A stretch of DNA of 64,000 nt from Mesodorylaimus sp. YZB2_4 (lineage: Eukaryota; Nematoda; Enoplea; Dorylaimida; Dorylaimidae). The notes under the pieces are model-generated. The model was not told the DNA's origin. It worked only from the letters and a program-made list of their open reading frames with translations, and did not search any database. Where the stretch lies: the NCBI GenBank assembly GCA_030248295.1, contig JASANH010000850.1:806001-870000 (forward strand), read 5' to 3'. Positions 31,293 through 35,433 of the stretch are shown here, piece after piece (the stretch's first letter is position 1; each line of letters begins with the position of its first letter). Both the position numbers and the translations under genes were made by a program.

Positions 31293-34200
31293 ATGGGCGA
31301 CGTCGTGGTGGCGAGTAGCGAAATCGATTGTTGGCGAGAAGTTGTTCCTGTTCAACATGAAGATCGGTATGTCCGGTTTGAGTTTCTTCAAGTTTAATTA
31401 TTATATATACAATTTTTTGAACATTTTAGCCAATTAAGTGTGCAAGTATTATTTCGCACTTTGAAGTATTCTTCGGCTGCAAAGGTTTGTTTATAACAAT
31501 TACAGTAGGCTAATTAATTTGATACAATTTTTATTCAGGAATATCACATAAAATTGACGAGCGAAGAGGACGATTGCTTTTTATATCGAACTGTTATTAC
31601 ACCTGAGGAACATCGAAGGTATCGTCGAGAATTTTTATCAATTTAGGTCGACGTAAAACTAGGATGATGAATTTCGGACTGATAAAAGAGGGGTTGATTT
31701 TGACGTGGAGACTGATAAAAATAAAAGATTATAAAAAATTCATGATTTTTATTTTGGAGGAAAGGCAAAGTAGAAGAAAAGGATGAGAATTTTTAAAATT
31801 TGTTGGGAACATTTTATTTTTTAACGCTCACGTTTTCGTACAGTATTTCTTATTAAACCCTAATTTTTTAAGAACTTTTTTAAAATTCTGTTAGTTACTT
31901 TGACTGGGATATTTTCTGTTTTTAGACTAATGCTATCTCACAGTATGAACATTTCGTTTGATCAGTTGCCCGAATATTTCCGGCAGCTTTTGAAGGCGGT
32001 GAAACACGAAGGCGAATATGGAGAAAGGTAATTTGCATAAATAATCAGTCAGTGTCGTCCTATGATTTTCATGAAAGCCTTCGTGCCGCCTTGCCTTTTA
32101 GGTATTTCATAAATGTATTAGCTCAAAACACGCCCGGCTTAGCTGCTCGTATCGAATTATTGATAACTATGCGACAAGCAGGTTATGTCGTTCAGAACAA
32201 ACGTCTGTGCCTGCCGTTCACTCTAGCGTCGGATTCGGATTTCAAGGAACACCTAATTGGGTGTTTCGATAAAATCAAGGTAATTTTCTGTGAACAATTT
32301 TTGTTCTTGAACGAGAATGAATTGGGTTGATTTGTAGAAAGAGAAAGAGCAGTTGCGTCGTTCGGTGACGTTGTTGGAAACTCAGCTACAGGAGGAACGT
32401 GTTCGTAGTCGCGAGGTGAGTTCACTCTAAAAACCGGTTTTTGAATTTTGGTTGTAATTAATTGGCCCTTGGTTTTTTCATTCGCCTAGCTGGAAGACAA
32501 GAACCGGTGGTTGCAAAAAGAATTGGAATTTAGTCAGGGCTTATTGAAATCGGCCGAAAATATTCAAGTATGTTTTCTTGAATATTAATTTAAAAAGGAG
32601 CACAGTGGACTAATAAGTTAGGCCTAACGCGGCCTAGTCCCTGGTTAAATTAGGTGCCTATTCAAGCCTGGCAGGGCTTATTGTCAGATCAGGGTTTATA
32701 TAGCCTAAGCCAAACTGAGGCGGGATATTCATGCTCGTGTCTGACTTGTTTTCTGTCAGCGAAGGGCAGACTCTTCCGACAAATAATCTTGCTGTTTCCA
32801 TTTGCGGAGGGTTCTTGGCGAACACGCTTGCAACGATGGTTGGGTAGATATTGATGCGAGCTCTTGTTTTAGAAGCATTACGAGTCGTTGTTGAATCAGA
32901 AACATCGAGGCGAAATCGGTGGTTCAGTATTGGTCAAAATTGAAGATTCGCTTGTTGGCGGTGACAGCTCGTTGACAAGCACGGGTATTCTGGCGGGGCA
33001 TTCTCAGGCGGACAGCGATTCGATGCAGCATGTCAGCGGGGACGACGACAGTGGCCGTGTTGATGTGGATGAAGAGCCAGTGGACAAGCGCAGTCCCGGT
33101 ATGTCCACTGATGAAGACAATAGTGCGGCCGTGGCGTCTTTGACTTTTGGCATCAGTGGCTTGACTGCGACTGCTGTTTCTCGAAACACGGAAAGTGAAC
33201 TGATAAGAAAGTCACCAGCTTTGGCCATCAGCGTTTTGGGACAACCTCAGAATGCGTCGACAGCCTCGAGCGCGTTGACGGCCAGCAGTACGTCGCCGAC
33301 GGACAGGAAAACACTGTCGACGCTGAAAGGAGCCGCTAAGAGGAAAGCGTCGTTTCACAATTACACGACGAACCAAAACGGGTCCAGCGGATCGTCAGTT
33401 CATACTACGGCGCCATCCACGTGCACCACGACCTCGAGCACGTCCAGTGGAACTAGCAGCGACGACAAACCGAGCGAGCATACGCACCGACCGCCTCCCA
33501 GGAAATACGCCGCGGCGATGGTGCAAGTCGATTCGCAGTTGATGCAAATACGACGCGAACAAGAACAACATCAGAAAAAGGTGGAAGATGAAGACGACGA
33601 GGAAGCCAGAAACGAGCTGTTTAACTCGGACTGTGCACCCACCGGAACGGCGACCACGGCCACCTCGCGGCCACCTCAGTCCGTGTCGTCGATGGGCGCG
33701 CATATGCAGGAAGCAGCGGCCGAGTTGGACCCTGGCTCGGGCGTACGACACGAGAAGTCGCCTATGCCATTGCCTCCCAGACCATTCTCGCACCCGCCCA
33801 TCGTGATTCCGCCCCCAGTCAGCGCCCAACAACAGCAGCCGTCGTTCGCGGCCCCACCGCCGCCAGGTTTGCCGTCGGCATCTCCGGTTCAGGTTCCGGC
33901 ACCCACTCAGTTGCCGTTACAAACTTCGTGGCACTTGGTGTCGAATTCGCCCTCCTTGCCCGTAGTGTCTGGTTTGCACATCCCGATGGCGGCGGCTTTC
34001 GCGGGTCATCACGACTTCGTGGGATTAGGGATGTCGCCCTATCTCTTGCCAACGATCAGTACGGCGGCGGGTAGCGTGGTGCCGTCCATGGCCTCGTCCG
34101 TACCCTCCACCTCGTCCTACGACAATGTGGCTGGCCCCTTCGAAGAGGATTATAACAACATGCCTGACGTAGGTCGTGCGCGAATCCTGTATTGCGTAAG

Positions 34201-35433
34201 GCGGGCAAGAAATGACGTGGTTCTCTTTTCAGAATTTTGGTCGCAATATCACCGAGTCGGCCGAAGTATTGAACGATCGCATGGGTGAGGACATGAGCAG
34301 CGATGCGTGGCCAATGATACCCAAGTCGGAACCAAACGAGTACCAGGACGATCGACTGAGCGATACGTGTTCCCGAGACAGTGCCGTTGTGTCAGCTTTG
34401 CGGAACGGGGTCGGGTCAGGTGTGGGCCTGATGATGGGGCATCGTCAGCTGATGTCGACCATGGCTATGAACGAGAACAGTATGGGCGCAGGGGGCAGCG
34501 AGTCCCCGGCACCCAGCGGAGCTATGGCGGGCTCGTACAGCGCCTCGGCATCCCCGTCCCTGTCCAATTCGTCGGCCGATGGTGTGGACGGTGTCATCAG
34601 TTACTTAAAGTGTCTCATCTGCGAGAGGTCGTTCGGCCAAGAGGGGGCTGCTGCTCACATGGCCCAGCATATAACTGGTAAGTGTGAGTCCTGAGCGGAG
34701 TGGCCGAGTCGGGGCCTCGGCGGCTCTGCCGAAACCACGGAGCTCGCTGTGACTCGAAATGCTTTTCAGATCCTCAACGCTGTACAATTTGCACGGAGAT
34801 GCCCCCTTTCCCATCCAAAGACGAATTGGTCAAACACATGATTGGCCACTGCGCCCGAGCCTACGCTTGCCGATATTGCGGCAAGGAGAATCCGCGCGTG
34901 CATTACTTGAAGATCCATGTTCGAAGTCACACTGGAGGTAAGGGCGGGTGTGCAGTGGGGTGATGGGCTCGTGTCATGTTATGCTGTTTCAGAGAAGCCG
35001 TACACTTGCTTGCAATGTGGGCGCGGATTCGCTGATGCCTCGACTTGGCGTCGTCATGAACGCGTGCACACGGGCGAGAAGCCATACGAGTGTACCATTT
35101 GCGGTAGGCTTCTTCTCCTCTACTCTGTCGTTCATATTAAATCCGACTGGTTGTTTTGCAGGAAGGAGAATCGCTCGTCGAGACAATGTAAAAATCCATA
35201 TGAGGTCTCACATGAGGAGCAAAGTGCAAATGAGTTGTCGAACGTAAGTTGCAATTGCGGCTAATCGAAATGATGTCATAATAATTGGCTCTTATTGCAG
35301 GTGCGGCAAAGTTTTCGCCCAACCCAATCACCTAGTATTGCACGAACGGATGTGCGGCGGGGCTTCGGGTAGTGGCGCCGATATGAAGCACGGCTCGGCG
35401 TCCACATCGGCCGACATACCAATCGTAGACTGA
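31293..35433 (+). CDS. SAS-6 head/coiled coil joined to a C2H2 zinc-finger protein
   Basis: Thirteen exons join in phase to a 959-aa product: 31293-31366, 31430-31484, 31539-31618, 31926-32027, 32102-32279, 32338-32415, 32490-32567, 32873-34168, 34233-34677, 34770-34937, 34993-35103, 35162-35243, 35301-35433. The first seven exons (215 aa) resemble the N-terminal head of SAS-6, the centriole cartwheel protein: [38 protein letters not shown], then a coiled coil from [11 protein letters not shown]. Exon 8 continues the helix ([11 protein letters not shown]), then becomes about 420 aa of Ser/Thr/Pro/Gln-rich sequence with an acidic helix ([19 protein letters not shown]). The remaining exons encode about six C2H2 fingers with TGEKPY linkers. 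The alternative is two overlapping genes: an ATG at 33023 could start the zinc-finger protein alone. The head match is by pattern recognition, moderately sure. Confidence 0.75.
34605..35433 (+). other. C2H2 zinc-finger array of the fusion gene
   Basis: Fingers in order: [13 protein letters not shown]...H...[78 protein letters not shown]; and [21 protein letters not shown], whose last ligand is Cys. Typical TGEKPY linkers join the middle fingers. Introns fall inside several fingers. Such arrays bind DNA or RNA, so this half would normally be a transcription factor. Confidence 0.9.

Follow-up and report, generated by a model that had tools for sequence, protein, structure and literature searches.

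A SAS-6-type head in frame with C2H2 zinc fingers in a nematode gene, and a finger-less paralogue

Introduction

Does one gene of a dorylaimid nematode encode a protein with the head of the centriolar protein SAS-6 at one end and C2H2 zinc fingers at the other, or do two adjacent genes only appear to be joined? The question is raised by positions 31293-35433, on the forward strand, of a 64,000-nucleotide stretch of Mesodorylaimus sp. YZB2_4 (assembly GCA_030248295.1, contig JASANH010000850.1, positions 806,001 to 870,000), which we refer to as the window. A sequence-only reading of the window had proposed that seven exons coding for a SAS-6 head and the beginning of a coiled coil are spliced in phase to a large exon and five zinc-finger exons. 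In the genomic sequence we confirmed a SAS-6-like head joined in frame to zinc fingers. The explanation we consider probable is a single composite protein, derived from a duplicated SAS-6-type gene, in which the finger module begins inside exon 8 and which would bind DNA as a dimer. Genome searches covered 145 Mb in 1067 contigs, and the contig carrying the gene (C3) is about 2 Mb long. The genome gave 27 matches to the transthyretin-like family PF01060, which is typical of nematodes; it gave none to PF00379, a weaker sign, as no control matched that family either.

Results

A single frame from head to fingers

The 13 exons modeled at 31293-35433 gave a single open frame of 959 residues without a frame break. 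GT...AG borders flank each of the 12 introns, and a TGA at 35431-35433 closes the frame, in agreement with the in-frame join proposed between the SAS-6 exons, the large exon and the finger exons. Exon 1 (31293-31366, 74 nt) holds the start codon and the N-terminus. The SAS-6-like head begins in exon 2 (31430-31484), continues through exons 3 (31539-31618) and 4 (31926-32027), and ends in exon 5 (32102-32279), where a predicted coiled coil starts at residue 153 (32247) and runs on through exons 6 (32338-32415) and 7 (32490-32567). The part preceding exon 8 amounts to 215 residues, and the region matching SAS-6 covers residues 1-229. Intron 7 (32568-32872, 305 nt) had itself as its sole DNA match in the genome. 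As had been pointed out, bases 32870-32872 are a TAG in the reading frame of exon 8, and the stop-to-stop open reading frame begins at 32873; with this stop in front of it, exon 8 has to be reached through a splice or through an internal start. The first 11 residues of the exon also agree with the earlier description. Exon 8 has no in-frame stop ahead of its donor, and its frame stays open to 34288. Intron 8 (64 nt) opens with a GT donor, closes with a polypyrimidine-CAG acceptor and leaves the phase intact.

The head is of SAS-6 type

The N-terminus had been read as SAS-6, and profile searches agreed. The Pfam family SAS-6_N matched residues 25-112 of the window protein at E 5.7e-10 (39.9 bits; cut-off 25), and a phmmer search of PDB returned zebrafish SAS-6 at 9.1e-10, human SAS-6 at 5e-4 and C. 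elegans SAS-6 at 0.089-0.37. A profile built from the window protein and the paralogue described below gave 5.4e-12 for zebrafish, 1.8e-7 for human and 0.0098-0.02 for C. elegans, with the first unrelated chain at 0.077. For both the single protein and the two-copy profile, the PDB matches better than 0.01 were exclusively SAS-6. An hhalign comparison with a profile of human, zebrafish and worm SAS-6 heads gave 96.9% and E 1.6e-10. XRCC4 was rejected as an identity at 0.3% in hhalign. The family Sas-6_helical was absent from the Pfam matches of the window protein; C. elegans SAS-6 does match it. On these profile matches, which lie far above chance, the head is of SAS-6 type.

A finger-less paralogue shares the exon 7/8 junction

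A second SAS-6-type gene lies on contig C47 (253832-251025, equivalent to L011:9833-7026, minus strand) and was modeled by hand. Its product of 481 residues matches SAS-6_N at 5.1e-8 (33.6 bits), carries basic KRK/PPPRK stretches in its tail, and none of its Pfam matches is to a zinc-finger family. In this paralogue exon 1 measures 80 nt, and exons 2-7 have the same lengths (55, 80, 102, 178, 78 and 78 nt, respectively) and the same phases in both genes. The exon 7/8 junction is identical in place, although the C47 intron 7 is only 58 nt long, and a KHYE...HRGE continuation follows in both; the C47 exon 8 starts with KHYEVILSLRHRGE, which aligned with the start of the window exon 8. The in-phase splice join between exons 7 and 8, claimed from the window alone, is thus repeated in a second gene, and because the paralogue has the same junction and, for exons 2-7, the same lengths and phases, this join belongs to the gene.

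Head and coil are 56% identical in residues across 229 codons, with identical bases at 10 of 36 fourfold sites. Silent sites thus look saturated while the protein has been held, a sign of purifying selection on head and coil.

Searching the genome with the window head gave 16 matches, located in the window, on C47, in fragments on contigs C229 and C943, and on contig C8. The fragments are 85-base, intronless stretches (L013:4066-4150 and L014:3940-3856) with 80% and 79% identity, respectively, to exons 1-3 in joined form. They cross the exon 1/2 and 2/3 junctions without introns and contain stops, and so look like the remnant of a retrocopy, as from a spliced mRNA; they support the splicing of exons 1-3 and are silent on the fusion. 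Each sits in a segment of about 3.9 kb that is duplicated between C229 and C943 at 95-97% identity. A 62-base stretch of the window (12622-12683), perhaps a dispersed repeat, recurs next to both fragments at 81% identity (L013:4503-4564 and L014:3503-3442).

The seam lies inside exon 8

Local alignment placed residues 334-528 of the window protein against residues 236-432 of the C47 protein with a score of 142. Of 500 shuffles that preserved local composition none reached this score (maximum 106), and the KHYE stretch likewise gave 0 of 500. A PPPRKxAAA stretch was aligned between the tails; a KRKxSF stretch was aligned by MAFFT and not by local alignment. Beyond this region, residues 535-647 compared with the C47 tail scored lower than the mean of the shuffles, and exons 9-13 showed no similarity to that tail. 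Because the C47 tail aligns with residues 334-528 and with none beyond 535, the seam falls inside the open exon 8. The first part of the exon (32873-33811) comprises the coil end and a low-complexity tail common to the paralogue, and the second (33812-34168) is a low-complexity linker with no paralogue counterpart that holds the fusion seam. By this alignment the first part of exon 8 is native to the SAS-6-like gene as its tail, and the putative foreign module sets in near residue 529 (33812). The sequence-only reading had located the seam where exon 7 is spliced to exon 8 and counted exon 8 with the zinc-finger module alone; the paralogue corrects both points.

Six finger motifs in five exons

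The five exons described as zinc-finger exons are exons 9-13, and by pattern they hold six C2H2-like motifs (residues 774-793, 800-823, 829-849, 857-877, 885-905 and 914-934). Exon 9 (34233-34677) codes for a linker rich in serine and acidic residues followed by motif 1. Motifs 2 and 3 lie in exon 10 (34770-34937), and finger 4, the start of finger 5 and TGEKP linkers in exon 11 (34993-35103). The remainder of finger 5 and the start of finger 6 are in exon 12 (35162-35243), and exon 13 (35301-35433) completes finger 6, which is of C2HC form, and ends with the stop codon. Metal ligands are kept by pattern in all six motifs, with fingers 1, 2 and 6 off strict spacing or ligands. With the TGEKP linkers, the array has the features of tandem C2H2 fingers. 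Pfam zf-C2H2 gave a whole-protein E value of 4.3e-19, with five stretches at a lax limit of 10.

A genome search with exons 8-13 (744 residues), in which 60 of 172 candidates were scored, gave at least 66 matches in total; those elsewhere in the genome were to generic fingers, the match with the best E value being 40% identical. Outside the gene, all scored matches at E 0.001 or better started at query residue 525 or later, that is, at the finger end. The best 60 of 176 PDB matches were C2H2 proteins of many kinds, and no orthologue could be named from them.

A short coil in both copies

The coil had been described as much shorter than that of a normal SAS-6, and the predictions support this. 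One predicted coil followed the head of the window protein, at residues 153-224 (scoring width 28) or 159-227 (width 21). In the C47 protein the coil was predicted at 154-197 (width 28) or at 154-196 plus 199-222 (width 21). The same method predicted 313-315 coil residues in human SAS-6, covered to residue 491, versus about 44-72 in both copies. Each tail has a second short predicted coil, at 431-458 in the window protein and 355-384 in the C47 protein. Because the finger-less paralogue also has a short coil, the fusion did not cause the shortening; on these predictions it is a property of the pair.

Whether heads could also contact one another was approached through the large hydrophobic residue of the head-head contact, F131 or I154 in other SAS-6 proteins. 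The contact residue falls opposite A130, G131 or V133 of the window protein, depending on the alignment. The hhalign comparison pointed to A130, the zebrafish mutant chain in phmmer and the two-copy profile to G131, and the zebrafish wild-type chain to V133. Of these three V133 alone is hydrophobic, with Y132 beside it, and at the positions of A130, G131 and V133 the C47 protein has S, G and T, respectively; the placement varies with the alignment. In fly SAS-6, a large hydrophobic head residue, F143, is described as required for head-head assembly (PMC4471874). The suggestion that the head could cluster the fingers into rings or dimers therefore survives in part: dimers are plausible from the coil and are likelier than rings, which the alignment-dependent contact residue neither shows nor excludes.

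Other centriole genes

The sequence-only reading had proposed a search for a second, full-length SAS-6 gene, and the search with the window head turned up the short-coil C47 paralogue. A third, full-length SAS-6 with a long coil was not detected with the window head, the C47 protein, the human SASS6 head, the C. elegans head, SAS-6_N or Sas-6_helical, in searches so insensitive that those with the human, worm and SAS-6_N queries missed both known copies; absence is not demonstrated by them. The match on C8, at E 0.009 with the window head and 0.033 with the C47 protein, looks by eye like a lamin and was rejected as SAS-6. Also rejected was the sole match of the C. elegans head, on contig C72 (E 7.26), which by eye is a purple acid phosphatase; tblastn at that locus gave matches at chance level only. 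Sas-6_helical gave 12 genome matches, all below the cut-off (best E 0.22), and one bacterial control matched as well. A search for SAS-4 by way of Pfam Tcp10_C found no genome match, and none of the controls matched either.

Neighboring genes

Upstream in the window lie a basic helix-loop-helix gene at about 18400-23300 (+ strand; HLH 2.4e-15), ARNT-like by eye, and a WH1-domain gene at about 23800-29130 (+ strand; WH1 2.1e-6), Homer-like by eye. Neighbors also include a mitochondrial L51/S25 family protein and, on the opposite strand, a CoA-transferase family III gene.

Discussion

A probable composite protein and its alternatives

A SAS-6-type head, a predicted coil, a tail shared with the paralogue and in-phase fingers are all present in the gene model. 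The codon signal was positive for the frame of exon 8 in all scanned segments inside the exon and about zero or below in the other two frames.

Several observations nevertheless weigh against a composite protein of this kind. The basis is the genomic sequence of one species. The tail match was weak in the genome-wide search with the C47 protein (E 0.029), and the reverse search with exons 8-13 did not list it at 0.001; because the genome-wide score is weak, the tail homology leans also on position and order. The C47 tail contains an intron that the window exon 8 is without, and the last two small exons of the C47 model are uncertain. The codon signal, from a table trained on the gene's other exons and C47, falls from +0.27 in the middle of exon 8 to +0.07 and +0.02 per codon at its end. 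The head-head contact residue, as described above, is not reliably placeable. Across exons 1-7 the GC content at third codon positions is 0.447; from residue 334 onward it lies at 0.59-0.71, with 0.67-0.71 in the second half of exon 8. Acceptors are TAG in 6 of 7 SAS-6-side introns and CAG in 5 of 5 finger-side introns (Fisher p 0.015), while in the C47 gene TAG and CAG occur 5 times each. This shift fits two parts of different origin, and would also fit two adjacent genes.

Two overlapping transcription units, which we regard as unlikely, would also account for the differing third-position composition and acceptor style of the two sides. A SAS-6-like mRNA would retain intron 8 and stop at 34286-34288, and a finger mRNA, from an internal promoter, would have its start within exon 8 or use the ATG at 34212. 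Because the shared tail lies in exon 8, two genes need one of these two starts and, in addition, a SAS-6-like mRNA that retains intron 8. The frame, open as far as the proposed stop, would permit this, and starts are on offer: exon 8 has 11 in-frame ATGs, and ATGs in the frame of exon 9 stand at 34212, 34281 and 34293. However, the borders of intron 8 are proper and the phase is kept across it, and a start at 34212 would have the polypyrimidine tract translated. There is no AATAAA or ATTAAA in 32501-35135 with which the first unit might end; since there is none in 35142-36050 either, this carries little weight.

A joined locus might instead be real in the DNA but recent and poorly functional, a read-through whose joint protein has no selected role. 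We find this distinctly improbable. The fusion is known from one copy in one genome, and the scored matches to exons 8-13 outside the gene at E 0.001 cover the finger end only; yet exon 8 is open to its donor and, judged by pattern, all six fingers have retained their metal ligands. An assembly misjoin inside exon 8 would suit a seam in the low-complexity stretch 33812-34168 and a composition that shifts along the exon, but the frame is kept across the join in a contig of about 2 Mb, and we consider a misjoin very improbable.

How a composite protein might work

If the locus makes one composite protein, a duplicated short-coil SAS-6-type gene with a low-complexity tail would carry a C-terminal C2H2 module in this copy. 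We have assumed a gain of fingers in the window copy rather than a loss in C47; the direction needs an outgroup. The protein would be expressed from one mRNA. A parallel dimer, formed by the coil together with the head at its base, would present two six-finger arrays, the SAS-6 part playing the role of the N-terminal dimerization domain of other zinc-finger proteins. We infer that such a dimer would bind DNA and have a nuclear role; larger assemblies would form only if the head-head contact survives.

More speculatively, a DNA-binding factor may have taken over a cartwheel-type head and coil for its own assembly, in an animal whose SAS-6-type genes, as far as detected, both have a short coil; one copy would be tethered to DNA and the finger-less one left for centrioles. 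We think this somewhat unlikely. If true, one protein would connect centriole-type self-assembly directly with chromatin. Zinc-finger proteins have repeatedly gained dimerization domains; a SAS-6-type head with its coil would be a new one, and would show how a structural centriole gene can take on another job after duplication. The finger-less sister on C47 offers a comparison within the same genome. That the coil is short in both copies bears on how the cartwheel spoke is built here, unless a canonical SAS-6 escaped the searches; in SAS-6 the coil is described as forming that spoke (PMC9592557).

Comparison with known systems

In the open literature searched, by title and the start of the abstract, we found no report of a fusion between a SAS-6-type head and zinc fingers. 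The window gene resembles SAS-6/SASS6 in its SAS-6_N head and in a predicted coil directly after it, and differs in the length of that coil (about 72 predicted residues versus 313-315 in human), in having no Sas-6_helical match and in the added fingers. SAS6L, described as a SAS-6 head without a coiled-coil tail (PMC3697468), likewise has the head and no long rod, whereas in the window gene the head is followed by a short coil and then a long tail, and a coil is predicted in both copies; the same source describes SAS6L as absent from Holozoa (PMC3697468). CCDC61 shares the order of head, coil and C-terminal region, and the 481 residues of the C47 protein compare with CCDC61 fragments described to residue 512 (PMC7267773). 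However, its coil is given as 144-287 (PMC7267773), and no chain named CCDC61, a protein compared here by description only, was among the PDB matches listed.

A parallel in layout is offered by the architectural C2H2 proteins of Drosophila, which are described as having an N-terminal self-association module and a C-terminal finger array (PMC8998743, PMC11229372). Most of the known Drosophila architectural proteins are reported to have N-terminal homodimerization domains (PMC8998743). In the window gene, by contrast, the module in that place would be a SAS-6-type head with its coil.

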